From Bryopsis sp. KO-2023 (Eukaryota > Chlorophyta > Ulvophyceae > Bryopsidales > Bryopsidaceae): a stretch of 64,000 nt of DNA. Position numbers and translations under genes: made by a program. The notes under the pieces are model-generated. The model was not told the origin of the DNA. It searched no databases and worked only from the letters and a program-made list of their open reading frames with translations. The DNA is taken from NCBI GenBank assembly GCA_030272585.1, contig BSYQ01000013.1:496001-560000 (forward strand), written 5' to 3'. Numbering within the stretch: the first letter of the stretch is position 1; every line of letters starts with the position of its first letter. Positions 5,651-57,149 of the stretch are shown in pieces.

Positions 5651-5680
5651 GATCTTGTCACAAGCCTGCTCCGAAACCAA

Positions 5681-6808: not shown

Positions 6809-6810
6809 TT

Positions 6811-16482: not shown

Positions 16483-18749
16483 TCAGCTTCTTATCTCAAA
16501 CTCACGTAACTTGTCCGGTGCGTTTCGCAAGTTTCTGGCAGGTTCCCAGGTGTCCTCCGATTGATCATAACCCTGCCATCTGACAAGGTACTGCTTCCTG
16601 CCCCTGACAGTCCTATCTGCCAGAATCCTGTCAACCAGATACTCCTCTTGGCCTGCCACCATTTCAGGCTCAGGTTGCCACCTGGGTGCCTCCCTGTCAG
16701 GAAAGCTGCCCTCCTGATCTTCGAAAGCAGGTTTCAGCTTGGACACATGGAAGGTGTTATGAATTTTCCAATGACCTGGCAGCCTCAGCCTGACTGCAAC
16801 TTCAGATAACCTCTTCAGAACTACAAAAGGTCCACAGTATTTTGCAGTCAATTTCCTGCTCAACACCTGTGGTAGGGGTAAGTCCTTTGTGGCGAGAAAA
16901 ACTTTGTCGCCCGGCTGAAAGCCCCCTCCCCTTCTGTTTTCGTCCGCCCCCTGGCGTTGACGTGCCTGAGCAGAAGCAATGTTCCTTCTGCAGGTTTGCA
17001 ATGCAGTCTGCCAAGTAGACCACCAATCATCCACTGCAGGGCAAGCTGTAGCAGCTACAGCACTTGCAGGAGTCCTGGGTTGCTGTCCATTCATCAAATA
17101 GAAGGGAGAAAACCCAGTTGTAGCATTTATGCTGGAATTGTATGCAAATTCTGCAGCATCCAAATGCATATCCCAGTCTGTGCCTGCAGGTTCCACATAA
17201 CTGCGCAGAATTTCCTGCACTGTTCTGTTAGCTCGCTCAGTCTGACCATCTGTCTCAGGATGATAACTGCTAGACATTGCTAACCGAGTGCCTGCCTTCT
17301 TCCAAAGAGCCCTCCAAAAATTGCTAGTGAAACGACTATCCCGATCAGAAACAATTTCTTGAGGCAATCCAAAGAAACGAACCACATGTTGGAAAAACAA
17401 ATCTGCTACCCCTGCAGCAGTAACTGTCTGCTTTGTTGGAATGAGTCTGATCATTTTTGTGAACCGATCCACAACCACCAGCAAATAATCTGACCCTTTC
17501 TGAGTCCTTGGCAAAGGTCCAACAAAGTCCAATGAAACACTAGTCCACCTGCCATCTGGAATTGGCAAGGGCTGCAGCTTACCCAAAGGCTTCTGAGTAG
17601 AGGCCTTGTTTCGTTGGCAGGGAATGCAATTCCTCACATACTTCTGCACAGATCCTGAAATGAGTGGCCAGAAGTAATACTGCTGAACCCTGTGCAGGGT
17701 CTTCCTCCTGCCCAGATGTCCTGCCAATGCAGACTCATGGCAAGCATGCAGTATCTTTTCCCTGAGCCCATCTGCTTCAGGTATCCACCATTTCCAGGAA
17801 TGACCAACATGTCTCCAAAGTTTCAGACCATCCCATTTCACATGTGGAGGTCTGGAAGGTGCTCCAATCAGCTGCCAACATAATGGATCCTTCTTGTAAG
17901 CTGCCAGCACTGCCTGCTGAAATTCCCGATCTGCTGTCAACCTTATCCTTGCATTCAGCTGAGGACCATGTTCCTCTGCCTGATGTGTGGCCCTGCTCAA
18001 CGCATCTGCCACCACATTGTCTCTGCCTGGTCGGTACTTGATATCAAACTTGAAGGATTGCAGAGTCTCCATCCATCGTGCTTGCCTCTGTGACAGGTGA
18101 GGCTGGGTGTGCAAAAATTTTAGAGGTGCATGATCGGTGTGCACGGTGAACTCCTGAGCATCCAAGTAGTGCCTCCACACTTTCAGAGCATGCACCACAG
18201 CCAACAGCTCCTTTTCATGAGTCGCATAGTTGAGCTCTGCCGGTTGCAGTTTCCTGCTTTCATATGCCACTGGTTGCTGACCCTGCCCCTGGTCCTGTGT
18301 TAGGACTGCTCCAATAGCATAGTCTGAGGCATCTGTGATCACCTCGAATCTCAGACTTGGGTCAGGCACCAAAAGCACTGGTGCAGACATTAACGCCTCC
18401 TTGACATCCTGCATTGCTGCAGCTTCTGCCTCAGTCCATTTCCACACTGCCTCCTTTTTCAATAGAGCAGTGAGTGGTTTGGCTCTTGCAGAAAAATCCT
18501 TGATGAATCTTCTGTAATAGTTTGCCAATCCCAGAAATGACCTGAGATCCTTCACTGAAGTCAAAGGTGGCCAGTCCCTGATGACCTGCACCTTACTCTG
18601 CAACACCTGTACTCCTGCAGCACTCAACTCATGCCCCAGAAACTCAACTTGCTCCTTGCAGATTTCACATTTGGAAGCTGAAGCATATAATTTCTGCTCC
18701 CTCAATCTCTGCATCACCTTTTCCAAGTGAACCTTGTGTTCTGCCCAAC
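16483..18749 (-). pseudogene. pol: pol of element 3a, 3' part (end of RT, RNase H, integrase, chromodomain)
   Basis: An open fragment of about 755 aa beginning just after the RT active-site block, where LARD2 is inserted. It holds the RT thumb/connection, RNase H, the integrase zinc domain and DDE core (QKG..DYLLVVVDRF block, SDRDSRF, TDGQTER) and a chromodomain ending in a YLVRWQGY..SEDTWEP block. The stop is at 16483. The sequence agrees with 51968-54235 of element 3b. The frame reads into the LARD2 LTR on its 5' side but has lost its own start, so it is broken by insertion rather than by mutation. Confidence 0.92.
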
Positions 18750-19399
18750 TGTAAGGATTCGGCAGAATCAAAGGAGATTCAGGCAGACCTGCAGGCTTGC
18801 AGACTGGCAGTGATTGGGCTGACAGATTAGGCTGCAGGTTGACTGCTATGATTCTGAAGAAGCAAGAATGGTTCAGGTCCTTTAGACCTGCAGACTAAAG
18901 GACTGGTAGTCAGCAGATTGGCAGACTGACGAAGTGGCAGAGTAGTCGGGCTGACAGGGTTGCTGATGGCAGACAGGTGCTGGCAGCGTTGCAGAACGTG
19001 GGCTGCAGAGCTGGCAGGCACAAGGTTCTAGAAGGTCTTAGGTGGCAGACTCAGGACCGCAGTACCGTGCAAGGTGTCTGAGGCTGCATGTCATGAAAGG
19101 GGACTGAAAGGAACTTGGTAGTTTGATGGTCTGCAACACTGATGCAGACTGATGTTATGGCTTAGGATCAGTTTGGATCAGGGTTGGAAGAAACGGTATA
19201 AGTTGTTGGGGCTTGGACATTCTTGTAACTTAACCTAACCTTAGTTTGGAACCTGATCTCGCCCTTGAACCTTGCTAGGTTCAAGTGTCTCTCCCATGGT
19301 CGTTCAATAGAACGGCAGTTCAGACTGGCAGACCGGCAGGGTCGCAGTCTTCAATGGACTTGAGTGGAAAAAGCGATCTGCAGGGGCAGAATCGTTACA
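18750..19399 (+). repeat. 5' LTR of LARD2
   Basis: 650 bp, same as 27246-27895. It contains GATCAGTTTGGATCAG and ATTCTTGTAACT, both also found in sense orientation in the element 3 LTR, and a weak TATA-like GGTATAAG near 19195. Confidence 0.93.
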
Positions 19400-30825: not shown

Positions 30826-31107
30826 CTTCTCCCTAAGGCCTCCAGAATTCCCTGCACCGGTGTCCCTGCCTGGACCACCACCTGCAGAAATTCCATCCAT
30901 GAATCTTACACACTTCTCCTCGGTTACGGCTACACACGGCTCATCAACCTTAGAATGGACTCCACGCCCATAGGCTACCCTCCCCTGAGGTAACACCTTG
31001 TGTGGGTGGCTACGCCGACCTTCCCACACTCCACTTCTGTCCTCCTGCTTCTCTTCTCCACGGCTGGCAGTCTCTCCAGACTCCAGCCTGCTCAGTTTTC
31101 CTGACAA
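30826..31107 (-). pseudogene. pol: pol N-terminal segment of element 3a, cut by the foldback insertion
   Basis: The -1 frame relative to gag is open from the end of gag to the foldback insertion, running into a stop inside it (30739). It encodes a charged, G/R-rich linker that would precede the protease. There is no ATG at its start, so expression as a Gag-Pol fusion is likely. GGAAAAC (31095-31101, minus strand) precedes the gag TGA, resembling the element 2 arrangement but not a perfect slip heptamer. Both copies of the CTGCTCAC duplication lie in the same codon phase relative to the pol frame on their side. Confidence 0.7.
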
Positions 31108-32261
31108 TCAACAGCAAAATGGCCCAACTTGCCGCAGTTATAGCACCGCACATTTGCTGCAGCGCGACCTGCGTCCATTCTGCTTCTGCCTGCTGACGAA
31201 CTTTCTCCAGACTTTCGCCTCTGTCTGCGAGGACTGCCACTGCGTCCCCTGCTCTTGCTGCGACTTGCGTCACGGCGTTTGCCGTCGTCAAAACCCACAC
31301 GGTTTCGCTGGAGGCCATCAACCTCCATGCGGTCACCTGATTGGGGAATATAACGCGGTGTCTGCCGATCGTCAAATCTGCCACGGTTGAAACTCTGAGA
31401 CCTGCCTCTGCTCTGCGAGCGTCCTCTGCTCTGTGAGCGTCCTCTGCTCTGGGATCGTCCCCTGCTTTGGGACCTGTCCCTGCGTGAACTTTCACGCCTG
31501 CCTCTGGGACTGCGGCCTCTGCGTCCTTCTCTGCGGTATATCTCTAGAGGTCCTTCCCATGTAGCGGCAAGTGCTATTGCACGCTCCAAATCTGCAGGAT
31601 CTTCCATTTCAACCTTAGTGCGCAAACGATCATTCAGACCTTCTATGAAACGAAACAGCTGCTCCCCAGCATTGCTGTCGTTGATCTGCAACATGAGCCT
31701 GCGAAAATCGTGCACATATTCTGCGACAGACATTCGACCCTGCTTCAGGCGTGACCATTCACGTCTGAAGTCCTTGTTCTCGTTGGTCTTGCCGAACTGC
31801 CGTCTGAGATCTGCGACTAGTGCGGTCAGATCTGTAGGCAAAGCCCTCTGGCCTGCCATTGCCTCTTCGTAACGACTTCTCCACCATGTTCCTGCGGCAC
31901 CTCTTAAACAGCCTGCAGCCACCAAAACCTGCTGTTCCCTGTCTCTGGTTGCAGTCAGATCATAATATGTCTGCAACTGAACCTGCCACTCGTTCAGAGG
32001 AACATCCTGTGGATCACCATACCAGGAGTCAGGGCCTTTTGCCCTTGCTTTACCCAGAGCTGCCGGCGGATGCTGCTCGGCCAACCTAGTCCGTACTGCG
32101 TGCCGGACTGCATCGTCCATCTGCGCGTTGACATTAGCGGCGACCTGCCTCAGGTGCAGGATCTCTTCCTGCATCTCTGCCATGCCCCGCCTCAGACCCT
32201 GAAGATCGAACGGATCTGGGGCTGGCGTTCCCATCTGCGGGTGCTCGTCTGTGCCTGACAT
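31092..32261 (-). CDS. gag: Gag of element 3a
   Basis: 389 aa from the ATG at 32261 (minus); the frame is open upstream without a better ATG. A retrotransposon gag domain of about 150 aa contains the TWWRSRYEE block, also recognisable in element 4 Gag (TWWRTRVEE). It is followed by an R/S-rich tract with perfect RGRSQS repeats (31405-31490) and a CCHC knuckle C-x2-C-x4-H-x4-C just before the stop. The RS repeats come from near-identical 24-bp DNA repeats. The protein packages the RNA and, by inference, LARD RNA. The frame appears intact. Confidence 0.9.
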   Translation of the reverse strand: MSGTDEHPQMGTPAPDPFDLQGLRRGMAEMQEEILHLRQVAANVNAQMDDAVRHAVRTRLAEQHPPAALGKARAKGPDSWYGDPQDVPLNEWQVQLQTYYDLTATRDREQQVLVAAGCLRGAAGTWWRSRYEEAMAGQRALPTDLTALVADLRRQFGKTNENKDFRREWSRLKQGRMSVAEYVHDFRRLMLQINDSNAGEQLFRFIEGLNDRLRTKVEMEDPADLERAIALAATWEGPLEIYRREGRRGRSPRGRRESSRRDRSQSRGRSQSRGRSQSRGRSQSRGRSQSFNRGRFDDRQTPRYIPQSGDRMEVDGLQRNRVGFDDGKRRDASRSKSRGRSGSPRRQRRKSGESSSAGRSRMDAGRAAANVRCYNCGKLGHFAVDCQEN

Positions 32262-32607
32262 TCCTCCTGTTCCGCTCACGCCTTTCCTGCGTTGCCCTCT
32301 GCGATCTGTAGATCGGACACTGAGGGTCAGAACAGTCGTAGTATCTGATAATATTACCACTGCGTTCTGCCTTCCTGTGGCCGTGAGGAGGCGCTCTGAG
32401 AGGAGGTGGAGGTACCACTGCCAATGGGTGTCTCACCGGACCCAAAACCTGCACTGGTCTGGGTAACCTGAAAGGGGCTGAAACCCAGTCCCCTGAGAAA
32501 GTAAACAGATCAGGTGGCAGCCCTGCCTCACACTGGATAACAGTCTCTACGTCTGATTCTGCTTCACTTCCACTACTCTCCACTGTCACAGGTTTCCCAA
32601 AACTCAT
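32134..32607 (-). CDS. Pre-gag ORF of element 3a
   Basis: 157 aa from the ATG at 32607. It overlaps the start of gag by 128 bp, with gag one nucleotide further along. Its first ~125 residues have protein-like composition: acidic/serine N-terminus, a P/R/L-rich middle, a C-x4-C pair (CSDPQC) and an R-rich segment. I recognise no family. Element 4 also has ORFs between leader and gag, which supports this being real. It could be translated separately or joined to gag by +1 frameshifting. Confidence 0.5.
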   Translation of the reverse strand: MSFGKPVTVESSGSEAESDVETVIQCEAGLPPDLFTFSGDWVSAPFRLPRPVQVLGPVRHPLAVVPPPPLRAPPHGHRKAERSGNIIRYYDCSDPQCPIYRSQRATQERRERNRRNVRHRRAPADGNASPRSVRSSGSEAGHGRDAGRDPAPEAGRR

Positions 32608-32616
32608 GCAGCACAC

Positions 32617-33021
32617 TTCTGCAGAAAGCCACTACAACACCGGCTAATTCCGACTAACCAAGAAGCCTTGCGCAAAACCTGCGTCTTCTAGATCTGCGCC
32701 GCCGCGCCTACTCTGATTAACCTAGAAAACTTGCGCAAACCTGCGTCTTCTAGACCCTGCGCCGCTGCGCCTAGTCAAACCTGCACTCAGGCAGTACTGC
32801 GATTTCGACCTTTTAGAAAGCTGCGCCTGCCTGCGCCAAACCTTTCTGGGATCTCTCTGAAAGCTGCGCCTATCTGCGCTGAACCTTTCTGCGACCTCTC
32901 CTTTGAAAGCTGCGCCTGCCTGCGCTACCTTTCACCAGAACTTCGTTCTCCTCTTTTGCTTCCTCCTGAAGCCTTTCAGGAACGCTGCGATCTTGTCGCC
33001 AGCCCTGAGCTCCGAAACCAA
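32617..33021 (-). other. Leader and primer-binding site of element 3a
   Basis: GCTCCGAAACCAA (33009-33021) is the complement of the primer-binding site, directly beside the 5' LTR. The leader is rich in CTGCGC/GCGCAG words; a ~60-bp unit around AACCTGCGTCTTCTAGA is tandemly repeated at about 32640-32770. This matches the word content of the LARD leaders. Confidence 0.75.
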
Positions 33022-33484
33022 TGTAAAGACTGCGCTGTAGACTGCGACTCTGAAGCAGTCTGCCAGCCTGAAACAACAGCCTAGAAGGCTGCAACAAGTT
33101 CTGACACGAGAGAGCGGGAGAGAGAGAGTGTTCAACCCCAAAATCGAGTTACAAGAATACCCTGAGGTGCTGCCCAAATACCCTAGGCTGCACCTCTGAT
33201 CCAAACTGATCGTTCAAGGTCCTATCCATCAACATGACCTGACAGTCTGCCTCAGTGTCAGGTCCCCTGTCTGAAACCTTCTGAGCTGCCAGCCCTGCAG
33301 AAAAGCGTCTGCTGAGCTGTCAGCCCCCATTCACAGATCTAAGGGTTCCGCCCTGCTGCAGCAAACCGGCTGCAGCATTGCTGGTTCCCTAGAACTGCAG
33401 GCCTGTCAGTTCCCCTGAACTGCAGGTCTACCAGTTCTCTGAACTGAGGATCTGACAGTTCCCCTGAACTGTAGAATCCTTACA
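33022..33484 (-). repeat. 5' LTR of element 3a
   Basis: 463 bp, TGTAAAG...CCTTACA on the plus strand; appears identical to the 3' LTR of element 3b (49473-49935). The outer flank is GGGCA. Confidence 0.95.
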
Positions 33485-34068: not shown

Positions 34069-34638
34069 TGAAACGGCTGACTTAGTAGGCGAAGATCTAG
34101 GCGGAAAACAGAGGTTACAGTCTGAGAGTTCCAGGTAGTCGCGGACTGACTGGAATGGGGTAGTTACGTGATGCTCAATGAGAGGCTGAAACGTAGTGAA
34201 AAGAGTTCGAACCAGGTTCAGTATATTCAGTGTCAGGTCTCAGATGGCTGAGAGTTTGGGTAGAGAGTCGGGAGTCAGACTGGAAGGAGCTTCAGTCTGG
34301 GTCCTTAGTCTAGAGGTTATCAAGGGTTATAAAGGGTTAGTCGGAGCTCTGGCTAGAAGGGCTGAGCTGAGAAATGATAGAGACGTTTTGGGGAGAGCTA
34401 GATGATAGCTAGTATTTGTAAGGTTAGGAGATGGGCTGGGAGTTTCTAGAAGCTCTGGGCTGAGAGTATAAAAGGCTGGGGATCGTTGTAAAGAACAAGC
34501 TTGTTGAAATAAGATTCAGTTGTATACTCTCGTGTCTCAGACCTTTCTTACAGAACTTCTGGTCGTCTCCCAACGTGTGTGAAGAACGGTTTAAGTGGCG
34601 GCTGGAAGTATTCAGCCTCAGGAAACAAATCCGTTTCA
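34069..34638 (+). repeat. 5' LTR of element 4
   Basis: 570 bp, matches 41732-42301. Ends in the 6-bp inverted TGAAAC / GTTTCA. Confidence 0.95.
34467..34474 (+). promoter_or_regulatory. TATA box in the 5' LTR of element 4
   Basis: TATAAAAG about 165 bp before the LTR end, a good match to a pol II TATA box; the 3' LTR copy is at 42130-42137. Transcription would start about 30 bp downstream, defining the U3/R boundary. Confidence 0.6.
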
Positions 34639-34659
34639 CTGGTTTCGGAGCGAGTTTCT

Positions 34660-34890: not shown

Positions 34891-34902
34891 GTTTTGTTGT
34901 CT

Positions 34903-35558: not shown

Positions 35559-35565
35559 GGCTGAG

Positions 35566-36564
35566 ATGGAGCAACAGGTGGCTGAGTTGAGGGCGGCGTA
35601 TGAGGAGGTAATGGGAAGGTTGAACCGAGTGCAAGGCGTGGTCGAAGAAGTACCGGGAATGCTGAGCACGGCGGTCAATGAGGCTGTGGGAAGCTCCATT
35701 TTGGAGCAACTAACCGACAAAGTGGGAACAGCAATCGGGGCGGCAACTGCAGCACAGGCTGGAACGGCGGCTGGAAGTGGTGGTCGAGGTAATGACCTGA
35801 GAAGCAAGCCAGCCCGACCTGATCTGTGGGGAGGCAGGCAGAATGACCCTCCTATCCAGGACTGGTTGTTCAGCCTCCGAGTGCATTTTGACGCCACCCA
35901 CGTCGAAGATGGAGTCTCGAAACTCCGCCTGGCAGGATCTCTACTGAGAGGGCCAGCCGCGACATGGTGGAGGACAAGAGTGGAGGAGTCGGAGACTGAT
36001 GGAGGCCGACCTTTGCCGACGTATGAGGACTTCTGTGAGGAGCTGAAAAACCAGTTCGGAGAACCACATTTTTTGCGCCGCACACGGACAGAATGGGCGA
36101 ATTTACGCCAAGGCGGAATGTCTGTGCGGGAATACACGCATCGCTTTAGGCAGCTGATGTTGTATATTTCCGACGCATCGGAGGGCGAAAAAATACACAG
36201 GTTCGTCGATGGTTTGCGAGGGAGGGTTGGTATCGAGACCGACCTCCAAAACCCCAAGACCTTGGATGAAGCTATTCGAGTGGCGGAAAGGTGGGGAGGA
36301 GCTCAATCTGGGAGTTCGATCTTGAATCGAGATCGCGGCGGCGGCGGCGGCAGCAGCGGCGGCGGCGGAAATCGCAGATCGGATCACATGGAATTGGACT
36401 ACGTCGGAAGAAGGCGACAACAGAGACAGCAGAAACAGCGAGGTGATAAAGAGAGAGAAAGAAATAAGCCAGTCTGGAAGAAAGAAAAAGCAGACGGAGA
36501 GGTGAAGTGTTACAAGTGTGGGCGTCGAGGGCATTACGCTCGAGACTGCCCCTCGCGAAAATGA
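35566..36564 (+). CDS. gag: Gag of element 4
   Basis: 332 aa. Short N-terminal helix (residues 1-45), A/G-rich linker, gag domain at about 85-245 (TWWRTRVEE block and a [13 protein letters not shown] block), G/S-rich tract near 265 from a GGC repeat, basic segment, then a CCHC knuckle C-x2-C-x4-H-x4-C at about 316-329 just before the stop. Clearly homologous to element 3 Gag, less so to element 2. The stop TGA (36562-36564) overlaps an ATG (36561) in the pol frame, giving ATGA. Confidence 0.92.
36561..36564 (+). promoter_or_regulatory. ATGA stop/start overlap between gag and pol
   Basis: The gag stop TGA and an in-frame pol ATG share two bases. pol is in the -1 frame and no clean X XXY YYZ heptamer is present (the bases before are CGC GAA AA), so coupled termination-reinitiation is a better fit than frameshifting here. 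Confidence 0.55.
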
Positions 36565-39500
36565 GTATGTTAGGTAAACTCGCAGGGTGTGAAGTTAAGG
36601 GGAAGCCTGCGAGTTCGAGGAATTCTAGGAATTCGAGGGATTTTTCGTTGGAAGAAACGTCCAAGGAACCGACTAGACCTGATAACCAAGATAACCTAGA
36701 AGTCCATTCATTTGATGGGACAGATTTAGACATGACTAAGTTCGGATTTCTAGCAGTGGCTGAAACTGATAACCGAACTAGACAACTGATTACTGTGAAA
36801 GGGGAAATCTCAGGTTTTGCAGCTGAGATATTAATAGACTGTGGAGCAACTGATTGCTTTTTGGCTCGGAAATTTTGCGAGAAAAATAAGCTGGAATTAG
36901 AAGCACAAGAAGAAAAAGTTAGCCTGGCTGGGGGAAGTACCTTAGAATCTAAAGGGAAGATCAGGGCTACTCTCAGATTTGGAGATTTTGCTAGTAGGGA
37001 GATTTTTCATGAAATGTCTCTTGCTAAGTATGATGCTATATTGGGAAAAACTTGGCTGGCTAAGCATAATCCCCGGGTTGATTTTCGAACGAATGAGGTA
37101 GTGGTTTCAGACGGGCTGAAAGAACATTTGATTCCTCCGGCAAACCCCGGAGAGGAGGAAGAGGAACAGTGTGTGCTGATGGTGTTTGAAACATGTTTGA
37201 ACAGAACTGACTCTGAACAAAATGTTTCCAGACAAGCTGAACTTACAGCAGAAATCAGACAGGAATTTCCTAACACTTTTGTGGAAGAATTACCCAGTGA
37301 GATACCCCCTTCCAGAGGTATCGAACACACGATCCAGTTGGAACCAGGCACGGTTCCACAAAGTAAAGCACCTTATCGACTAGGCATCAAGGAAATGGCA
37401 GAACTGAAAACTCAGATTGCAGACATGTCGGGAAAAGGGTTTATTCGACCGAGTAGATCACCTTGGGGAGCACCGGTAATTTTTGTACCGAAGAAGAACG
37501 GGAAACTACGCATGTGTGTAGATTATCGGGCATTGAATAAGGTGACGGTGAAAAACTCTTATCCGATTCCGAGGATAGATGAACTGATAGATCAGCTTCA
37601 TGGCGCAAAATACTTCTCGAAAATAGATTTGTGTTCGGGATACTATCAAGTCAGGATGGCGAAAAAGGATTGGGCGAAAACTGCTTTTCGAACTAGATAT
37701 GGATCTTACGAATACACAGTTATGCCAATGGGTTTGACAAATGCACCAGCAACTTTTATGAATGTGATGAACGATGTTTTTCGACCACATCTGGATAAGT
37801 TTGTTATAGTTTATCTCGATGATATCTTAGTTTACAGTCGGAACTGGGAAGAGCACAAGGAACATCTTAGACAAGTGTTTCAGCTACTCGAAAAACACAA
37901 ACTTTACGTTTCACCGGACAAATGTGATTTGGGGATGACAGAAGTCGAATTTTTGGGACACATAGTCGGAAGAGAGGGACTCTCCGTGGTACCTAAGAAA
38001 GTTTTAGCCATTAAGGAGTGGGCACAACCTCAGACAGTTCGGGATATTAGGTCGTTTTTGGGTTTAGCGAATTATTATCGGAAATTTATTAAGGGATACT
38101 CTGGGATTGCAACGCCGTTACATGAACTAACAAGGAAGGAAGTTAAATGGCAGTGGACTGAAAGTCAGGAGAAAGCGTTTCAGACGCTAAAGAAGAGCAT
38201 GCAGGAGGCACCTGTGTTAATAATTCCAGATCCGGAGTTGAGTTTTGAAGTAACTACAGACGCATCGGATTTTGCTATTGGAGGAGTTCTGACGCAAGAT
38301 CAAGGTCAGGGGCAACAACCAGCCGCGTTTGAAAGTCGGAAATTAAATTCAGCTGAGAGGAATTATCCGACACACGAAAAAGAACTGTATGCGATAGTCT
38401 ATTGTTTGAAAACTTGGCGACATTATTTGGGGGCGAGGAAATTTGTGGTTCACACGGACCACGCTCCGCTGAAATATATTCAGACGCAGCCTAAATTATC
38501 CAGTAGACAGGCTAGGTGGATGGAAACTTTACAGGAATTTGATTTTGAGATTAAATACAAACCTGGAAAAGAAAATACAGTTGCAGATGCATTAAGTCGA
38601 AGGTCGGAAATGGAATTAAACGCTGTGGCAAAAGTCCGAGCAGGCGTAGTATTTCAGGATCAGGTTAGACTTGCGTATCAAGGGGATGAACATTGCAGAG
38701 AAGTTATAGCTAATTGGGAAGCTGGTGAAAAAGATCCGCGTTATAGGTGGGATGGCACAAAATTGTGGTATAGTCTGAAAGACAAATGGTTTTGGTATAT
38801 TCCAAAGGACAAAGAAATTAGACAAACAGTGTTGGCTGAATGTCACGATCAGGCTGGACATTTTGGGAGACACAAGACTGTCGCAAATGTTCGAAAAAGA
38901 TATTATTGGCCTAGATGCACTGAGGATGTCGAACGATATGTTAGGACTTGTGTTGGTTGTCAGAAAAACAAGTCTAGCACTCAAAAACCATTGGGGTTAT
39001 ATCAGCCGATTCCAGTTCCAGACGAACGCTGGAAAGAAGTTTGTTTAGATTTTGTGGGACCTTTACCTATGACACAAAAGGGTCATGATTATTTAGTGGT
39101 TATGGTCGACCGTTTTAGTCGAATGATCCACTTGGTAGCCACCACTACTGCAGTTACAGCTAGTGGGGTAGCTGAAATTTTCTTTGATACAATTTTCAGA
39201 CATCATGGGTTGCCAGAGGCTATTATTTCCGATCGAGATACTCGTTTTACAGGCCAGTTTTGGCGAAAACTGTGGGAATTAGCGGGAACTCGTTTAGCCA
39301 TGTCATCGGGATATCACCCTGAAACTGATGGAATGACTGAAAGGGCAAATCGAGTAGTCGGAGACATGTTGCGAATTTATATTTCGACCATAGGGGGTGA
39401 TTGGGACACTAAATTAGTGGCGGCTGAGTTTGCTTATAACTCATCCGTTCACTCATCAACAGGTTTTACACCTTTTTATTTGGTTTATGGGCAACATCCC

Positions 39501-40106
39501 AGATCCCCTCAGGATTTGTTAGACTCAGGTCCAGTTTCAGATGAATGGTGGACAGTTTGGGCTAAAAGTTTACAGCTGGCTCGGAAAGCGATTTTGAAAA
39601 GCCAACAGCGACAGAGGGCTGTCGCAAACCGAGGGCGGAGGGATGCAAGTTTTGCATTAAATCAGTATGTCTTTTTATCGACAGCTGATTTACCTTTACC
39701 GCCAATGATGGGCCGGAAGTTGGTATCTAAGTTTTGTGGACCTTTTAGAATTATTGATATTGTGACATCAGTAACTTACAGGTTGGAACTTCCTAATCAC
39801 TGGAAAATACATGATGTTTTTCATGTTTCCAAGCTAAAAGCATTTGAAGATGGATCAGAAGAGTTTCCAGCCAGGGCTATTTCTCCACCTCCAGATCCAG
39901 TGGTGTTGGAAGGAGTCGAGGAATATATCGTCGAAAAGATCAAGACACATCGAACCAAACGGCGGAAAAAGAAGAATGTGACAGAGTACTTGGTTTCCTG
40001 GGAAGGATACGGATCGGAAGAGGACCAGTGGCTCCCGTCACATCACTTGGGTAATGCGCAGCAAGTGCTGCAGGAGTATTTACGTCAAAAATCTTCCATG
40101 GACTAG
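36561..40106 (+). CDS. pol: Pol of element 4 (protease, RT, RNase H, integrase, chromodomain)
   Basis: 1181 aa from ATG 36561. Protease active site reads DCGATD (D93), with Cys in place of the usual Ser/Thr. RT YLDD is at residues about 418-421. RNase H spans about 38240-38610. The integrase zinc domain ends C-x2-C near 38950-38960. The DDE core has its first D near 39046, SDRDTRF near 39228 and the TDGMTER block near 39325. A chromodomain at about 39910-40090 ends with a [15 protein letters not shown] block. Frame and motifs are intact apart from the protease variant. Same domain order and strong similarity to element 3 pol; a different subfamily from element 2. Confidence 0.93.
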
Positions 40107-40200
40107 CTCCTGTTTTCCTGAGTTCGGGTTGAGTGTGTGCGAGTGCGAGTGTGTGCGAGAGACAGTTTGGAGTTCGAAAAAGAAAAAGAAAGCAGACAAC

Positions 40201-41220
40201 ATGGTTGAGTTTGGTGGAGGAGTCAAAGCACTGTTGGAGGAGATTAAAAAGAATGCTGGAGCGATCGAGGGAGTGTCGGAAAGGATCAACAAAATGCTGG
40301 AGGAGTACCTGAAGGAAGGAACCAGACTGGAAAGAATCCAAGAAAGAGATGAGCAGGAGGCCCTGGAAAAAATGGCAAAGCTGGAGGAGGAAAAAGAACA
40401 ACTCAAGCAAAAGATCGGCGAGCTGGAAGAAGAAGGGGGATTTCAGGCGGAAAGAGATAGCTGGGAGGCTGAACGCACTCGGTTGCTCGACGACCGGGCG
40501 AAATATTTGGCGGAAAATGAGGACCTCAGCGTAAAATTGGCGATGGCGGAAACTTCAGCGGACGCGGCGAAAAGAGAGGCGGAAAAGCTGCTGATGGAGG
40601 GGGCAGATGAGGAAATGCGCCACAAGCTCGACGGGGTCGAAGACAAGCTGCGGGAAGAGCAAATGCGGAACCAACAGCTCAAGGGCCAGGTAGACTTGTT
40701 GAAGAGTATGGTGGAGTCCATGTCGGGAAAACCAAGCGGAGAAGTGAAGCACGAAGAGGGGGAAAAACACACTTGCGTGTTTTGTCGCACCCCAAGCAGC
40801 AACTGTCAGCCGACCGGAGAAGACTGCCAACGGCACTGGGTGTGCTCGAATATCGGGTGTCGGGATCGGGTGTGGCTGAGTATCAGTCTGGAAGTCGATG
40901 AGGAAAAACGAGACTGGCGAAGAATGTGGGTACCAGCTGAAACAGGGCCACCAATGGTGCTACACTCGGAAACCTGCAAACTCTGCGCCTTGGGTTTCAA
41001 GTTGGGGTCGGATTATACTCGGGGAGTGTATTTAAAGGCCAAGCGGACCGTGGGCCCCCTGAGAAAATTCGAGGCAGCCGAAGACGATGCAGAACCAACG
41101 GACTACGATGGGGATTGGGTCGTCAATGAGCCAGGCGGAGACAGTGGACCAGAAGGAAAGAAAAGGAAACCTCCTGGAAGTTCAGGGGGATCCAGAAATG
41201 TGAAACTCAGAAAAGCCTGA
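40201..41220 (+). CDS. ORF3 of element 4: long coiled coil plus RING-like Cys/His cluster
   Basis: 339 aa; I chose the ATG at 40201, which begins the coiled-coil region, over an in-frame ATG at 40054 inside pol. Residues about 20-175 are almost wholly E/K/L-rich heptads. Then C192-x2-C195-x13-C209-x2-H212-x2-C215-x4-C220-x4-W225-x33-C259-x2-C262. Residues 263-339 are basic/acidic, ending in a K/R-rich tail. The cluster spacing from C209 to W225 is identical to that in ORF3 of element 3, and both lie after pol. No signal peptide or membrane segment. An oligomerising, zinc-binding accessory protein is the conservative reading; E3-ligase-like function is inference. Confidence 0.85.
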   Translation: MVEFGGGVKALLEEIKKNAGAIEGVSERINKMLEEYLKEGTRLERIQERDEQEALEKMAKLEEEKEQLKQKIGELEEEGGFQAERDSWEAERTRLLDDRAKYLAENEDLSVKLAMAETSADAAKREAEKLLMEGADEEMRHKLDGVEDKLREEQMRNQQLKGQVDLLKSMVESMSGKPSGEVKHEEGEKHTCVFCRTPSSNCQPTGEDCQRHWVCSNIGCRDRVWLSISLEVDEEKRDWRRMWVPAETGPPMVLHSETCKLCALGFKLGSDYTRGVYLKAKRTVGPLRKFEAAEDDAEPTDYDGDWVVNEPGGDSGPEGKKRKPPGSSGGSRNVKLRKA

Positions 41221-41731
41221 GTTGAATATAAAAAAAAAAAAAAATATAGGATCAAGAGTGGAATATGATTTTCTGTTGGTAATTGGGTGTTTGAATTTTA
41301 TTTTGTTTTTGGAAGAAAAAGGAAAAGAACAGTGAATGGATCAAGTGAGGGTAGAGGGAATTTCTGGAAAACAATTAACATACTGAGTGTGTAAAAACAC
41401 TTGTGAGAATTACAGTTTGACTAGAGCTGAGACTGTGTGATTTCCAGTGTGGGCTGTGAAGTCTATTGAACAGGGTTGGGTTTATGTGTGAACGGGCTGG
41501 GATGGGATGTCACAGCGGCAGAAGTAACCATAAGCAGAAACCAACATTCAGCTCAAGTCGCAATCGGGAAGTTGTTACGGAAAACGTCGGAGAATATTGC
41601 TTACAGCTATATCAGAGGTATTCTCAGAATAAGCGAGTTAAGTCACTTGGCAGTTCTGGTGAAGTCGTGCAATACGAACTTAGTGTACAGAACATCGCTG
41701 GGTCAGCGATCTCTCTCTAAGGGGGGAGGAG
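41221..41731 (+). other. 3' UTR and polypurine tract of element 4
   Basis: An A-run at 41230-41243, then about 480 bp without a convincing gene, ending AAGGGGGGAGGAG before the 3' LTR. Confidence 0.75.
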
Positions 41732-42301
41732 TGAAACGGCTGACTTAGTAGGCGAAGATCTAGGCGGAAAACAGAGGTTACAGTCTGAGAGTTCCAGGTA
41801 GTCGCGGACTGACTGGAATGGGGTAGTTACGTGATGCTCAATGAGAGGCTGAAACGTAGTGAAAAGAGTTCGAACCAGGTTCAGTATATTCAGTGTCAGG
41901 TCTCAGATGGCTGAGAGTTTGGGTAGAGAGTCGGGAGTCAGACTGGAAGGAGCTTCAGTCTGGGTCCTTAGTCTAGAGGTTATCAAGGGTTATAAAGGGT
42001 TAGTCGGAGCTCTGGCTAGAAGGGCTGAGCTGAGAAATGATAGAGACGTTTTGGGGAGAGCTAGATGATAGCTAGTATTTGTAAGGTTAGGAGATGGGCT
42101 GGGAGTTTCTAGAAGCTCTGGGCTGAGAGTATAAAAGGCTGGGGATCGTTGTAAAGAACAAGCTTGTTGAAATAAGATTCAGTTGTATACTCTCGTGTCT
42201 CAGACCTTTCTTACAGAACTTCTGGTCGTCTCCCAACGTGTGTGAAGAACGGTTTAAGTGGCGGCTGGAAGTATTCAGCCTCAGGAAACAAATCCGTTTC
42301 A
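41732..42301 (+). repeat. 3' LTR of element 4
   Basis: 570 bp, matches 34069-34638; TATAAAAG at 42130-42137. Followed by the target duplication GTTCC. Confidence 0.95.
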
Positions 42302-42324
42302 GTTCCCGATCGCAGCCCCAGCGG
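42302..42324 (-). pseudogene. Ankyrin-repeat host gene, exon part upstream of element 4
   Basis: The remaining 23 bp of the exon cut by element 4. Its minus-strand frame (AGAAIGN) joins that of 33839-34068. A splice acceptor (ATTTAG) precedes it at 42325-42330. Confidence 0.65.
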
Positions 42325-48996: not shown

Positions 48997-49472
48997 CCCT
49001 GCAACTCAGAAAAACAACATCACTGGAAAAAAGTAGGAAAAAAAAAATGAATGAATGCTGGAATTGCATGTCCCCGACACGTTATTATGAGCGGTATATC
49101 AAGAAATTCATCACAGTACATCTGCTGCGTAATCAAGCACTAATGCTTCCCTGAGCATAGCCAGATGACCCGCAAAAAAAAACATAACCAAATGCCATGG
49201 AACGTAAAAAAAGAAAAAAAAAACAGATGCGTCTTTCCAAAAAGGGATGGCGAGAATTTGGCACCAGCAGGAGAAAAATGCAACAACTCCCCCAAAAGTT
49301 CGATGGGCAGTACGACTACGCACAGATATTTCATCAGTAAACCACAGCAAACATTATGTCGTTCCTCTGCAAAAAACTTGTTTTTCTTTCACTTCCAATA
49401 GATAACTATAAAACTTCATTTCTATCCAATACATAAGTCTCCAATTTCAATTCTTAATTTTTTGAGGGGGCA
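48997..49472. other. Host DNA up to element 3b
   Basis: AT-rich with A-runs; no gene supported. Ends GGGGGCA beside the element 3b LTR. Confidence 0.5.
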
Positions 49473-49935
49473 TGTAAAGACTGCGCTGTAGACTGCGACT
49501 CTGAAGCAGTCTGCCAGCCTGAAACAACAGCCTAGAAGGCTGCAACAAGTTCTGACACGAGAGAGCGGGAGAGAGAGAGTGTTCAACCCCAAAATCGAGT
49601 TACAAGAATACCCTGAGGTGCTGCCCAAATACCCTAGGCTGCACCTCTGATCCAAACTGATCGTTCAAGGTCCTATCCATCAACATGACCTGACAGTCTG
49701 CCTCAGTGTCAGGTCCCCTGTCTGAAACCTTCTGAGCTGCCAGCCCTGCAGAAAAGCGTCTGCTGAGCTGTCAGCCCCCATTCACAGATCTAAGGGTTCC
49801 GCCCTGCTGCAGCAAACCGGCTGCAGCATTGCTGGTTCCCTAGAACTGCAGGCCTGTCAGTTCCCCTGAACTGCAGGTCTACCAGTTCTCTGAACTGAGG
49901 ATCTGACAGTTCCCCTGAACTGTAGAATCCTTACA
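49473..49935 (-). repeat. 3' LTR of element 3b
   Basis: 463 bp, apparently identical to the 5' LTR of element 3a (33022-33484) and carrying the ~35 bp missing from the element 3a 3' LTR. Confidence 0.95.
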
Positions 49936-50915: not shown

Positions 50916-51782
50916 TCAGGTCGCCGGACGTTTCAAGCCCCTCTTTGGCGCAAGCGCGGGCACACTCCAGCGGATCTCTCGAAGTGGCACGCAGTCACGA
51001 TTGGTTCGTCCCGGGGAGGCTGGCTGCGTTGGCAGGGGTGGACTGATGACCGCAATCCGCAAGGACGTCAGCACCCTCGGCGCCATGACCGTGTGCTCCC
51101 GCAGCTGGCACAGCCCGCACTCTTTCGTCGCATCCACCGAGATCCCCTTTCGCGTTTCGCTGAGTCGTCCAACCACCTCCAAGCTCCCGTCTGGGTTCGT
51201 TCTCTCCACCGTTACGTCTGGCGCGTACCAGAGTCTCTGGACACAGAGGTCTCTGCAGCATACCCGGTGCTTCCCACATGGAAGCTCCCGCACTGGTGCC
51301 CCAAGAGATCGCGCCGTCTTGAAGCAGAGCGAACAGCCGCGTCCCGTTTCTTTCAGCGCCGTCTCCATCTCACTCTTTTGGCTTGCTGCAGGTTTTTCTG
51401 GTTCAGGGAGCCCTGTGTCCAGGAAGCCGAAGGACACCTCCTCTTCGGAATCCAACCGCGTTACCGGCATTTTCTTCGCCCACTCTCGCCACGCTTTCAG
51501 CTCACTCTCGGCGGCACTCAGAGACCCTTGCAGCTTCCACTTTTCCTGCTCCACCTTTTGACACTTGCTCCTCAGCCTTTCCAACTCCGCGACGTCGACT
51601 GCCCTCTTCCGCAGGACCTGCACCGCCTCCTCAAACGCCACAACCTCATCTGCCCCCTTGATCACGTCGGCTTTCTCCACCGCTGCCGCAGGGATAACCA
51701 CAGGGGCAGCCTCTGCTGGCTCACTGCTGCTGGCGGGGGTTGAGACGATAAGGGCGGCCTGGTTTGCTGGTTGCTGATCCAT
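50916..51782 (-). CDS. ORF3 of element 3b: coiled-coil protein with RING-like Cys/His cluster
   Basis: 288 aa, same sequence as ORF3 of element 3a (15431-16297). The key residues C150, C153, C169, H172, C175, C180, W185, C222 and C225 are all present. It starts 185 bp after the pol stop. Exact preservation reflects the recent duplication; conservation of the cluster against element 4 is the functional evidence. Confidence 0.8.
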   Translation of the reverse strand: MDQQPANQAALIVSTPASSSEPAEAAPVVIPAAAVEKADVIKGADEVVAFEEAVQVLRKRAVDVAELERLRSKCQKVEQEKWKLQGSLSAAESELKAWREWAKKMPVTRLDSEEEVSFGFLDTGLPEPEKPAASQKSEMETALKETGRGCSLCFKTARSLGAPVRELPCGKHRVCCRDLCVQRLWYAPDVTVERTNPDGSLEVVGRLSETRKGISVDATKECGLCQLREHTVMAPRVLTSLRIAVISPPLPTQPASPGRTNRDCVPLREIRWSVPALAPKRGLKRPAT

Positions 51783-51967: not shown

Positions 51968-54900
51968 TCAGCTTCTTATCTCAAACTCACGTAACTTGTC
52001 CGGTGCGTTTCGCAAGTTTCTGGCAGGTTCCCAGGTGTCCTCCGATTGATCATAACCCTGCCATCTGACAAGGTACTGCTTCCTGCCCCTGACAGTCCTA
52101 TCTGCCAGAATCCTGTCAACCAGATACTCCTCTTGGCCTGCCACCATTTCAGGCTCAGGTTGCCACCTGGGTGCCTCCCTGTCAGGAAAGCTGCCCTCCT
52201 GATCTTCGAAAGCAGGTTTCAGCTTGGACACATGGAAGGTGTTATGAATTTTCCAATGACCTGGCAGCCTCAGCCTGACTGCAACTTCAGATAACCTCTT
52301 CAGAACTACAAAAGGTCCACAGTATTTTGCAGTCAATTTCCTGCTCAACACCTGTGGTAGGGGTAAGTCCTTTGTGGCGAGAAAAACTTTGTCGCCCGGC
52401 TGAAAGCCCCCTCCCCTTCTGTTTTCGTCCGCCCCCTGGCGTTGACGTGCCTGAGCAGAAGCAATGTTCCTTCTGCAGGTTTGCAATGCAGTCTGCCAAG
52501 TAGACCACCAATCATCCACTGCAGGGCAAGCTGTAGCAGCTACAGCACTTGCAGGAGTCCTGGGTTGCTGTCCATTCATCAAATAGAAGGGAGAAAACCC
52601 AGTTGTAGCATTTATGCTGGAATTGTATGCAAATTCTGCAGCATCCAAATGCATATCCCAGTCTGTGCCTGCAGGTTCCACATAACTGCGCAGAATTTCC
52701 TGCACTGTTCTGTTAGCTCGCTCAGTCTGACCATCTGTCTCAGGATGATAACTGCTAGACATTGCTAACCGAGTGCCTGCCTTCTTCCAAAGAGCCCTCC
52801 AAAAATTGCTAGTGAAACGACTATCCCGATCAGAAACAATTTCTTGAGGCAATCCAAAGAAACGAACCACATGTTGGAAAAACAAATCTGCTACCCCTGC
52901 AGCAGTAACTGTCTGCTTTGTTGGAATGAGTCTGATCATTTTTGTGAACCGATCCACAACCACCAGCAAATAATCTGACCCTTTCTGAGTCCTTGGCAAA
53001 GGTCCAACAAAGTCCAATGAAACACTAGTCCACCTGCCATCTGGAATTGGCAAGGGCTGCAGCTTACCCAAAGGCTTCTGAGTAGAGGCCTTGTTTCGTT
53101 GGCAGGGAATGCAATTCCTCACATACTTCTGCACAGATCCTGAAATGAGTGGCCAGAAGTAATACTGCTGAACCCTGTGCAGGGTCTTCCTCCTGCCCAG
53201 ATGTCCTGCCAATGCAGACTCATGGCAAGCATGCAGTATCTTTTCCCTGAGCCCATCTGCTTCAGGTATCCACCATTTCCAGGAATGACCAACATGTCTC
53301 CAAAGTTTCAGACCATCCCATTTCACATGTGGAGGTCTGGAAGGTGCTCCAATCAGCTGCCAACATAATGGATCCTTCTTGTAAGCTGCCAGCACTGCCT
53401 GCTGAAATTCCCGATCTGCTGTCAACCTTATCCTTGCATTCAGCTGAGGACCATGTTCCTCTGCCTGATGTGTGGCCCTGCTCAACGCATCTGCCACCAC
53501 ATTGTCTCTGCCTGGTCGGTACTTGATATCAAACTTGAAGGATTGCAGAGTCTCCATCCATCGTGCTTGCCTCTGTGACAGGTGAGGCTGGGTGTGCAAA
53601 AATTTTAGAGGTGCATGATCGGTGTGCACGGTGAACTCCTGAGCATCCAAGTAGTGCCTCCACACTTTCAGAGCATGCACCACAGCCAACAGCTCCTTTT
53701 CATGAGTCGCATAGTTGAGCTCTGCCGGTTGCAGTTTCCTGCTTTCATATGCCACTGGTTGCTGACCCTGCCCCTGGTCCTGTGTTAGGACTGCTCCAAT
53801 AGCATAGTCTGAGGCATCTGTGATCACCTCGAATCTCAGACTTGGGTCAGGCACCAAAAGCACTGGTGCAGACATTAACGCCTCCTTGACATCCTGCATT
53901 GCTGCAGCTTCTGCCTCAGTCCATTTCCACACTGCCTCCTTTTTCAATAGAGCAGTGAGTGGTTTGGCTCTTGCAGAAAAATCCTTGATGAATCTTCTGT
54001 AATAGTTTGCCAATCCCAGAAATGACCTGAGATCCTTCACTGAAGTCAAAGGTGGCCAGTCCCTGATGACCTGCACCTTACTCTGCAACACCTGTACTCC
54101 TGCAGCACTCAACTCATGCCCCAGAAACTCAACTTGCTCCTTGCAGATTTCACATTTGGAAGCTGAAGCATATAATTTCTGCTCCCTCAATCTCTGCATC
54201 ACCTTTTCCAAGTGAACCTTGTGTTCTGCCCAACTCTTGCTAAAAATCAAGATGTCATCTAAGTAAACGATGCAAAAGGCGTCCAGAAAATCATGCAACA
54301 CATGATTCATTGTGTTCATGAATGTGGCAGGAGCATTGGTCAGCCCAAAAGGAAGAACTATGTACTCATACAGACCATACCTGGTGCGGAAGGCCGTTTT
54401 CTCACAGTCTGCAGGGTCCAACCGCACCTGATGGTAGCCTGCGCAGAGATCAATTTTGCTGAAGCAGCGAGCTCCCTGAATCTGATCCAGCAATTCCTCT
54501 ATCCTTGGGATAGGGTACCTGTTCTTCACCGTTAGTTTGTTAAGTGCCCGAAAGTCTACGCACATCCTAAGCTTTCCGTTCTTCTTAGGAACAAACAAAA
54601 TTGGTGAACCCCAGGGTGACTTGCTAGGTCTGATAAAACCCTGCTTCAGTAACTCTGCCAACTGCTTCTTGAATTCTTCCCTTTCTGCAAAACTGGCTCT
54701 ATAAAGCCCCTTTTTCACTGGTTCTGCCCCTTCTACCAATTCAATCTTATGGTTCACACCCCTGTCAGGAGGCAATTCCTGCGGCAGTTCCTCTTTAAAC
54801 AAATCCTGAAACTCCTTTCTGATCTGTTTTTCTAGCTCAACTGCCTCTTTCTGTTCCTCTGACAAGGTTTCTGGTTCACTGCCTCTCACTGCATCAGTAC

Positions 54901-55841
54901 TTTCCAAACCATTTATTGAACATCCATTATTTACTTCCCGTAAATTCAATAGGTACATCGGCAGGCCCTTGCGAGCTGCCCGAGCTACCTCATGTGCAGA
55001 CATGAGGTCCAAATCTGCTGTACTGCAATCTTCCAATCTGCCTGTTTGCATTCTAAGTTTAACGACTCTACCCTGAGGCCCCTGCAAAGCCACTATCTTT
55101 TCCTGCCAATCTATGGTGGGGTTATGTTTGATCAACCAAGACATACCCAGCACCAGGTCATATCTGCCCAGTGTTACTGCATACATCTTTTCTTCAGACA
55201 CAAACCTCCCCATCTTGACACTGGCCTGCAGTTCTTTTTCTACCTTTTCTGAAGTCCTGCCATCTGCCAACTGAACTTCAGAAACTGCCTCAGAGTGTTG
55301 TGTCTGTATGCTGTTTTCCTGCAACCAATCTTTCGAAACAAAATTGTCGGTTGCACCACTATCTATCAAAATTCTAGCAAAACAATCTGCCACAAACCCT
55401 GTGGTCTTCAACATTCCCTGAGTCCCCCCATGGACTCCTCTCAACTTCAAAAGTGGGGGTTCATCCAAGCTATATCCTTTAAAGCAAACTTCATTAGGTC
55501 TGCCCAGCCCAGATTCCTCTCTCACTGAAAACAGGTCTGCGGTGTCTGCCCTCAGATCACCAGCAGCACCAACATGCACTGAAAAATCATGCAAGTCAGG
55601 TGTGGCCCCGCCTGGCCCTGCACCTACTGCCTCTGAGAATTGAGTAGTTGTGGCTACCGTAGGCACATCAACCCCCTCAATCTCACTCCATGACCCTGCA
55701 GGTGTCAGTGCCTCCTGCACTACACCTTCAGAATCCTTCTCTGAAACATCTGCAGATGCTGCGACTCCGCGCCCAGCATCTACCATTGCACTCTTCAAAC
55801 AAACTGCAAGCCTCCCCAACTTCGGCAGACCACTTGCAGTA
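51968..55841 (-). CDS. pol: Pol of element 3b (protease, RT, RNase H, integrase, chromodomain)
   Basis: Continuous frame of about 1290 aa from the edge of the foldback insertion to the stop at 51968; the frame also runs ~164 bp into the foldback element, which adds a D-R-T-G-rich artefact. Protease DSGATDN near 55355-55370; RT YLDD near 54257-54268; RNase H about 53560-53850; integrase zinc domain near 53100-53230 and DDE core about 52690-53040; chromodomain about 51975-52130 with a YLVRWQGY block. All catalytic motifs are present. Because the foldback element separates it from gag, a normal Gag-Pol cannot be made unless the insertion is removed from the RNA or an internal start is used. Confidence 0.9.
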
Positions 55842-55849
55842 CTGCTCAC

Positions 55850-57149
55850 CAGACCTGGGCCCGACCGGACCGGCAGCGAAAAACCGGTCCGGTCCGGTCC
55901 AACCTGTCTAAGGACCGGCCGACCTGTCCGGTCCTGTCCGGTCCAACGAAAAAACGCCGGTCCTTGCAAGACCGGACAGGTTGCGACCTGTCCGGTCCTG
56001 TCCACTCCGGTCCAATCAACCTCGGAAATCTGCAGAAATCTGGACCGGTTTTCTGAGATTTTCCGTTTTTAGACAGGTCACACCCACATTTCGCCTTTAT
56101 TAGACCGGCGATGTGACCTGTCTAAAACCGGAACGACCCTGTCTTGACAGGGTTGTTCTCCTGTTTTAGACCGGCTCCAGGTCGGTCTGGACAGGTGGGC
56201 TGCCTGTCCAGACCGACCTGGCGCCTGTCTAGAACAGGTCACACAATTAAGCACTTTTAGCGTGCCAATTGTGTATCAATTGACTGGGAACTGAGTTAAT
56301 TAATTAAACAACAAATAATATTGTTACATGTATTTTCATTGCATGAATGACGTGAGCCAAGCTCACCAGCCACCGACTGGAGGGAGTCGGTCGACTCTGG
56401 GAGGACTCGAACTCGGGTTGGCTAAGTCCGAGTCGAGAGCACTACAAGGTAGCGGACCCCACCATAGGGACGCTCAAATGGGTTCCGCTACCTTTAAGTA
56501 CCTACTTTTTGTAATGGAAAATAACGGGTACTTAAAGGTAGCGGACCCCATTTGAGCGTCCCTATGGTGGGGTCCGCTACCTTGTAGTGCTCTCGACTCG
56601 GACTTAGCCAACCCGAGTTCGAGTCCTCCCAAAGTCGACCGACTCCCTCTAGTCGGTGGCTGGTGAGCTTGGCTCACGTTATTCATCCACTAAAAATATA
56701 TATAATAGTATTACTTGGTGCTTTAATTAATTCAATCACTTCCCAACTGATTGATTCCCAGTTATGTGCTTAATTGTGCGACCTGTTCTAGACAGGCTCC
56801 AGGTCGGTCTGGACAGGCAGCCCACCTGTCCAGACCGACCTGGAGCCGGTCTAAAACAGGTCAAACTAGGCCTCACACCGGTCTAAAACAGGGTCACACC
56901 GGTCTAAAACAGGTCACACGAGTATGACCTATCCAGACAGGCGACAACCTGTCTGGACAGGTCAGACCGGTCTAGAAAGGTCAAATCCGGTCTAAGAAAG
57001 GTGTTCTTTACTAGACCGGATTTGACCTTTCTTAGACCGGATTTGACCTTTCCAGACCGGTTTGACCTGTCTAAGAAAGGTCAAATCCGGTCCAAGACAG
57101 GTTTTCCGGTCCGGTCCGGTCCTTTAAAACTTGCCGGCGCCCACGTCTG
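55850..57149. mobile_element. hAT-like foldback element in element 3b
   Basis: 1300 bp at the same site as 29516-30817, with the same CTGCTCAC duplication (55842-55849 and 57150-57157). The palindrome is at about 56344-56684. Differs from the 3a copy by a few substitutions and a short deletion near 56056. It therefore inserted before the two element 3 copies separated. Confidence 0.85.

Follow-up and report, generated by a model that had tools for sequence, protein, structure and literature searches.

A putative zinc protein family common to retrotransposons, a Helitron and a probable KDZ-type DNA transposon in the green alga Bryopsis sp. KO-2023

Four types of mobile element in Bryopsis sp. 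KO-2023 carry related genes, here called ORF3, for a predicted zinc protein: chromoviruses, another Ty3 LTR element, a Helitron and a probable DNA transposon of the KDZ type. Across these carriers the domain is conserved, the gene occupies defined positions, its reading frame is under purifying selection, copies lie in recent insertions, and its synonymous divergence is discordant with that of neighbouring genes. The reading placed first here, with a probability of roughly 0.4, is that ORF3 is a laterally exchanged accessory protein directed at the host and acting against silencing; a RING-like ubiquitin ligase and a cofactor of the elements' own mobility are ranked below it. The initial annotation had described the gene in two chromoviruses, a scope that is now widened to at least nine families.

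The window, a stretch of 64,000 nucleotides, holds three ORF3s. One belongs to element 4, a Ty3-type element extending over 34069-42301 on the forward strand. Its two 570-bp LTRs (34069..34638 and 41732..42301) are 100% identical and the target-site duplication GTTCC brackets it, at 34064-34068 before the 5' LTR and at 42302-42306 after the 3' LTR, so that it looks like a complete recent insertion. On the same strand lie gag (35566..36564; Pfam Retrotrans_gag, Ty3_capsid and a CCHC knuckle), pol (36507..40106; Pfam protease, RT, RNase H, integrase and chromodomain) and ORF3 (40201..41220, 339 codons), which consists of a coiled coil, a linker, a zinc domain (residues 192-262, 40774..40986, placed by alignment and pattern) and a C-terminal tail with a basic cluster. 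This gene represents family A, and its frame is open further upstream, with an extra in-frame ATG at 40054.

The other two ORF3s, of family E, lie on the reverse strand, for which the initial annotation had given no orientation, in two copies of element 3 (15431..16297, with a zinc domain at about 15623-15850, and 50916..51782, with a zinc domain at about 51108-51335); both have 288 codons and their translations are identical. The first copy retains the 3' part of pol (16483..18771, reverse strand), which is broken by a 9.1-kb insertion at 18750-27895, together with gag (31092..32360, reverse strand, by Pfam) and, upstream of gag, an LTR (33021..33484, reverse strand) that is 100% identical to the LTR downstream of the second copy (49472..49935, reverse strand). 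In the second copy, pol with its chromodomain spans 51968..56005 (reverse strand, by Pfam), and homology to the first copy ends at about 57578. ORF3 had been reported to follow pol in both elements, which was confirmed, and both pols bear a chromodomain by Pfam (E 7.3e-10 in element 4 and 4.2e-16 in element 3, scanned in the second copy; the pol of the first is interrupted). Little other similarity between the two proteins had been noted, in agreement with a BLASTP match of E 0.004 and 31% identity over 49 aa. The 9.1-kb insertion itself has identical 650-bp LTRs and a CCAAC target duplication; long frames are few in it, and it resembles a non-autonomous LTR element.

The spacing proposed for the zinc domain, C-x2-C-x13/15-C-x2-H-x2-C-x4-C-x4-W-x33/36-C-x2-C, was found at every interval in both ORF3s. 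Within the window, the three ORF3s are the only matches among 444 stop-free stretches of at least 60 aa, and none of 20,000 composition-preserving shuffles reproduced the nine-position pattern for any of 10 family proteins. In a recheck that made no use of the pattern, 52 loci were fetched by homology and 47 alignments span all nine positions, L029, L049, L050, L051 and L052 covering part of the zinc domain only and standing outside this number. The eight Cys/His residues and the single Trp are all kept in 45 of the 47. One exception, L030, is a decayed A-like sequence; the other, L046 of family E, has an open frame in which Phe occupies the position of the sixth ligand, and thus not every open copy keeps an intact domain. 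The nine columns are also invariant in a 24-row alignment whose rows had been chosen by the nine-position pattern; alignments A1 and A3 drew their rows in the same manner, and full conservation there is partly a product of that choice. By our own reading of the alignments, a C-terminal motif resembling (L/Y)-x-G-x-(W/F) is common to families A to D, and one resembling N-x-D/N, after which comes a strand-like end, to families E to I.

Upstream of the zinc domain, a heptad-like stretch is present in all 10 proteins, with p of 0.04 or less against shuffles in nine and 0.08 in family I. In element 4 the best heptad window covers residues 137-171 (40609..40713, forward strand; p 0.007 against 300 shuffles), and in family E none of 300 shuffles equalled the observed score. 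The coiled coil claimed at the start of both proteins was therefore recovered as a coil, although in family E it follows an Ala/Pro-rich start and does not itself begin the protein. Basic clusters (4 of 5 residues K/R) occur in six of the 10 proteins, in the C-terminal tail of only three. The general build would accordingly be a coil, a variable linker, a zinc domain and, in several families, a basic patch; the coil probably makes the protein a dimer, and the eight-Cys/His domain probably binds two zinc ions.

These features invite comparison with RING fingers, and the initial annotation had suggested a RING-type, perhaps ubiquitin-ligase-like protein. As such, ORF3 would be a divergent ligase or adaptor that dimerises through a TRIM-like coil, recruits an E2 and has a host restriction or silencing factor destroyed. 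The consensus of the RING C3HC4 finger prescribes both an order of ligands and a C-x2-C interval between ligands 5 and 6. The order, C-C-C-H-C-C-C-C, and the number of ligands are shared by 45 of the 47 domains; a Trp follows the sixth ligand, Pro-Val precedes the third in families E-H, and a helix across the sixth ligand and the Trp is predicted in both structure models. However, the 45 intact domains have C5-x4-C6, with four residues and not two (the two exceptions are not x2 either), and a long loop precedes the last ligand pair. Pfam RING models scored over their cut-off in 0 of 11 and 0 of 10 domains, the best score being that of family I (PF24921, 18.3 bits against a cut-off of 50). The two predicted structures, of mean pLDDT 64 and 72, gave no significant Foldseek or VIA match: the top Foldseek rows of the first model include chains of MAGE-G1/NSE-1 (E 1.4) and MSL1-MSL2 (E 1.9), both non-significant, and the better model had no match at all. 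PDB sequence searches with two profiles gave no match, and when two single domains were included one row was returned: RGLG5 (E 1.7), in which the aligned segment of the chain lacks the cysteines. The ligand order fits, but with the altered spacing and no profile match a RING ligase is an unlikely reading; if correct, it would describe an unusual ligase borne by mobile elements.

Other collections were equally poor in relatives. NCBIfam gave only choice_anch_V (E 0.027, in two of 24 rows), and the zinc-domain rows matched no CxC model. A search of 5.8 billion proteins, which needs shared 5-residue words and may miss distant algal relatives, returned nothing at E 1 among 3,419 candidates for P0001 as lone query, and nothing among 745 candidates for the family G zinc region. 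With the 11-row profile A2, at least two proteins reached E 1 or better among 7,992 candidates scored, both from Bryopsis sp. KO-2023. A scan of viral contigs with family H matched 11 stretches, none of them a relative. Among the matches listed in these short-word-limited searches, relatives in protein collections thus appear to be Bryopsis fragments only, and as far as these collections go the zinc-protein family has not been seen before. The open-access literature yielded no description; a Bryopsis nuclear genome paper, of which none was found there, might hold one. Two database proteins, BSKO_13661 and BSKO_07799, start like the ORF of the Helitron zinc protein and have no zinc domain.

The initial annotation had asked whether other copies hold homologues of ORF3, and many copies across the assembly do. 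Searching the 91.09-Mb, 28-contig assembly with families A, E, I, C, G and D as queries gave at least 210 copies in nine families, as counted by hand from the search listings. Light-harvesting proteins encoded in this assembly have siphonaxanthin complexes labelled Bry-Lhcb among their best solved relatives, in keeping with a Bryopsis host. Family A accounts for at least 52 full-length stop-free copies out of at least 120 matches, and family E for at least 59 copies spanning at least 284 of 288 residues. The remaining hand counts are at least 36 for F, 29 for B, five each for C and C', seven for D, three for G, eight for H and six for I. These numbers leave out shorter A and E matches as well as single short fragments and decayed pieces of B and F, and the B and F counts take in some truncated frames.

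Families A and E-I are chromoviruses, as indicated by a Ty3-type RT and a chromodomain after the integrase (Pfam, one pol for each of the six families), with 59-62% RT identity between family A and E-I. In all six, ORF3 lies between pol and the 3' LTR. The copy read of each of F, G, H and I contains gag, a chromodomain pol, ORF3 and 100% identical LTRs, and an LTR pair matching at 100% was seen in one copy for each of six families (A, B, F, G, H and I); at a second family I locus the repeats are 99.4% identical. Family B is a Ty3 LTR element of another kind, its RT being 36-39% identical to those of the six chromoviruses. Gag-protease, RT-RNase H and integrase occupy separate frames in both copies read, and the LTRs, of about 1.38 kb, are 100% identical in one copy, at which no target duplication was recognised. 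No chromodomain was found in the family B integrase ORF of the one copy scanned (L058). In both L058 and L069, one of which has identical LTRs, pol is split into three frames, for RT-RNase H, for some 190 aa and for integrase; introns or frameshifts may be real here.

Families C and C' are carried by a Helitron, whose Rep (PF14214, E 1e-42) and PIF1 helicase (PF05970, E 1.6e-51) reside in one protein in which no chromodomain was found. C' and C flank the helicase in all five long copies, one of them interrupted; this count covers the long copies, beside which there are 25 further helicase matches, decayed or distant. Both zinc ORFs lie inside a 23.1-kb Helitron at C15:202705-225818, and likewise between the ends of its homologous copy, the ends being set by comparing the two. 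In both, the 5' end reads TCTCTACC immediately after an A, and the 3' end comes after a hairpin with a 7-bp stem (recognised by eye) and is followed by T. Insertion between A and T, a 5' TC end and a 3' hairpin are therefore all present. The consensus of the Helitron 3' terminus is CTRR; this is absent in the two copies compared, which end in CTTG. The 23-kb Helitron (L059-L060, L074) also contains long minisatellite arrays, and its two zinc ORFs are 14 kb apart.

The carrier of family D is a probable DNA transposon of the KDZ type. In all seven long copies D has a DUF3987 gene as its neighbour, in the same orientation and at a distance of 1.6 to 11.5 kb, and six of the seven have between the two a gene with weak chromo and KDZ matches. 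The KDZ match (PF18758) scores 20.6 bits, below the cut-off of 26.6, and a CxC5 match beside it 19.7 bits, below 26.9. Two D copies share the same termini and have 8-bp target duplications, a length typical of KDZ elements: the C10 copy reads TCTAATTG and the C8 copy AACCCCCT. The inverted ends are imperfect, as judged by eye. The CxC clusters of KDZ transposases (PF18718 CxC5) resemble the zinc domain in being a cysteine-rich module tied to KDZ, but the CxC5 match in the D element falls in an ORF separate from the D zinc protein.

This range of carriers bears on two earlier proposals drawn from the position of the gene. The description of ORF3 as a chromovirus feature in the place of env holds for A and E-I, and does not hold for the family as a whole, as family B without a detected chromodomain, the Helitron and the KDZ-type DNA transposon also carry it. 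In A and E-I, a location after pol and before the 3' LTR would suit an env-like or virion protein; yet a membrane-spanning segment is absent from all 10 proteins (maximum Kyte-Doolittle 19-window 0.66-1.39) and relatives exist in a Helitron and a DNA transposon, and an env-like identity was rejected as having almost no probability. A role in assembly had also been suggested, and retroviral-type assembly alone is unlikely, since the Helitron and the KDZ-type DNA transposon carry the same protein.

Purifying selection acts on the gene. The possibility of a dN/dS near 1 had been raised; whole-ORF values (Nei-Gojobori) lie instead at 0.15-0.35 in six families: A stands at 0.19 and I at 0.15, B spans 0.18-0.28, E 0.20-0.28 and F 0.24-0.35, and C against C', at dS 1.07, gives 0.28. 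Taken alone, the zinc part often has smaller values, with 0.024 for A, 0.13 for C/C' and 0.08-0.13 for E, though this does not hold throughout (0.15-0.29 for B, 0.22-0.32 for F). The highest N-terminal values come from single pairs, 0.58 in F and 0.87 between two close E copies separated by 8 changes. The conception of a retrotransposon-borne zinc protein that is common to families and under selection is thus borne out, zinc binding being probable only. Helitrons are known for gene capture, and ORF3 might accordingly stem from a host gene that elements picked up on several occasions and that hitch-hikes as a passenger with no role for the element. These constraints within families and between C and C' weaken that explanation, as does the retention of ORF3 in recent copies of several families, and we regard it as very improbable. 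No single-copy host relative was noticed in the assembly searches, where introns or divergence could hide one.

Synonymous divergence (pS) often differs between ORF3 and the genes around it. Between families E and F, pS is 0.46 for pol (95% bootstrap 0.42-0.49; the opening 150 residues of the frame, aligned at 25%, are dropped) and 0.82 for ORF3 (0.76-0.91), the latter being rough because the alignment stands at about 40% identity. Two B copies differ by 0.53 in RT, 0.23 in integrase and 0.06 in ORF3, and within family A the coil part reaches 0.39 and the zinc part 0.10. In the D element, the C5 and C8 copies are 99% identical across 2.3 kb including the D ORF, and their DUF3987 proteins 87%. 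Such discordance points to different histories of ORF3 and its neighbours, and the mosaics fit an exchange of segments between elements. To reach four element types, the gene must have crossed between types three times or more, or else have been captured repeatedly from a source that this analysis did not uncover. A tree of the zinc domain splits {E-I} from {A,B,C,D} with support of 98/97, at a point where long branches meet, and the AU test rejects neither a chromovirus clade (p 0.38) nor a retroelement clade (p 0.40). Given this result and the shortness of the domain, topology alone cannot prove transfer or decide its route; the claim of transfer is based on the occurrence in different element types and on the discordant synonymous divergence.

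Concerning expression, the ORF3 frame opens after the pol stop in the copies read of E, F, G, H, I and B, and ORF3 therefore needs its own start or message in these families. No splice site for ORF3 was established. Fusion of ORF3 to pol by frameshifting was rejected as a general solution, being possible only in A, whose ORF3 frame overlaps pol.

As its carriers include LTR retrotransposons, a Helitron and a KDZ-type DNA transposon, ORF3 is not part of the catalytic machinery of any one element. The family accompanies integrase, Rep/helicase and KDZ-type transposase alike, so that the host is its most likely shared target; what the carriers have in common is the host nucleus and its silencing, which makes an action of the protein on host chromatin or defence the most likely one. 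A competing explanation is that ORF3 serves the mobility of its own element, as a cofactor that binds nucleic acid or tethers to chromatin and brings the integration or transposition intermediate to its target or assists its nuclear passage. The zinc domain, the coiled coil and some of the basic patches would agree with this, and most carrier families have a chromodomain match in the integrase or beside the transposase. Nevertheless, the family B integrase ORF and the Helitron protein are exceptions, and element 1 (6294-14079, LTRs 99.8% identical) has a chromodomain and manages without ORF3, for which the 256 bp between its pol and LTR leave no room. Moreover, the transposition intermediates of integrase, Rep/helicase and KDZ systems differ. 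A mobility cofactor is for these reasons improbable, about as much so as the ligase.

Under the preferred host-directed reading, we infer that the protein binds zinc, dimerises, resides in the nucleus, is expressed from a message or start of its own and acts against silencing. The favoured form of it is modelled on VANC, which belongs to one superfamily: the ORF3 protein would recognise the non-coding DNA of its own element and relieve silencing there. For VANC of Arabidopsis VANDAL elements, the available text reports that anti-silencing was shown, and that the targets are often tandem repeats which vary between related elements (PMC5735166). The likeness lies in an accessory protein within the element and in repeats as targets, related VANC proteins affecting different elements; the difference is that anti-silencing is shown there and would be an extrapolation for ORF3 (PMC5735166).

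Tandem repeats stand beside the zinc ORF in six of the nine families (B, C, D, E, G and I), the array of family E comprising just two 49-bp units; in A, F and H no clear tandem array adjoins ORF3. Arrays are also present elsewhere in the window, and element 1, the sole non-carrier examined, has no tandem repeats of note. CpG in the window is at 0.55 of expectation, with an excess of TpG and CpA, and this depletion suggests that cytosine methylation acts on the elements. Observed/expected CpG is 0.27 in element 1, 0.44-0.47 in the carriers E, F and B, and 0.75-0.97 in A, G, H, I, C and D, a comparison that is suggestive only, having one non-carrier. The clear depletion in E, F and B indicates that carrying ORF3 does not simply protect. 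A more extended proposal, that chromoviruses, other Ty3 elements, the Helitron and the KDZ-type element trade a class-crossing anti-silencing zinc gene whose versions evolve with their own repeats, is tentative and on the whole doubtful. If true, such an exchangeable module would be the first in retrotransposons and DNA transposons of one genome, as far as the literature searched goes.

By analogy, the closest precedent is the set of TET/JBP dioxygenase genes of fungal transposons. According to the available part of the source, these are carried by diverse DNA transposons, including KDZ types, and by Helitrons, move between superfamilies, and in the author's view probably help them to escape silencing (PMC12730594). 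ORF3 resembles them as one accessory gene on unrelated superfamilies, KDZ and Helitrons among them, with transfers; there, however, the protein is a known enzyme and its carriers are DNA transposons, whereas the ORF3 family has no relative found and occurs in retrotransposons too (PMC12730594, same part). The ORF3 of bdelloid rotifer LTR retrotransposons is similar in following pol, in not being env, in being a type of ORF common to retroelement classes and in that one type is labelled CC; in the available text, it differs in being common to retroelements only and in falling into GDSL, DEDDy, TM or CC types, with mention of neither zinc nor RING (PMC5408684). Accessory genes common to unrelated transposons point to one obstacle set by the host. 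The ORF3 family, which is under selection, resides in very recent insertions and has seemingly been exchanged between copy-and-paste and other elements, perhaps represents a new class of silencing-overriding protein, and offers a testable handle on transposon survival in a giant-celled (coenocytic) green alga.

Further features were observed in passing. In the window, long inverted repeats link 1-6277 and 18803-25135, with 92-100% complementarity over several kb, and an ORF at 61190-62254 resembles, by eye only, part of a hAT-type transposase. On contig C2, at roughly 1.2-6.2 Mb, decayed fragments of the zinc ORF, the Helitron and DUF3987 with stop codons appear by eye to be concentrated, a pattern of decay that might suit a chromosome which is sex-linked or does not recombine.
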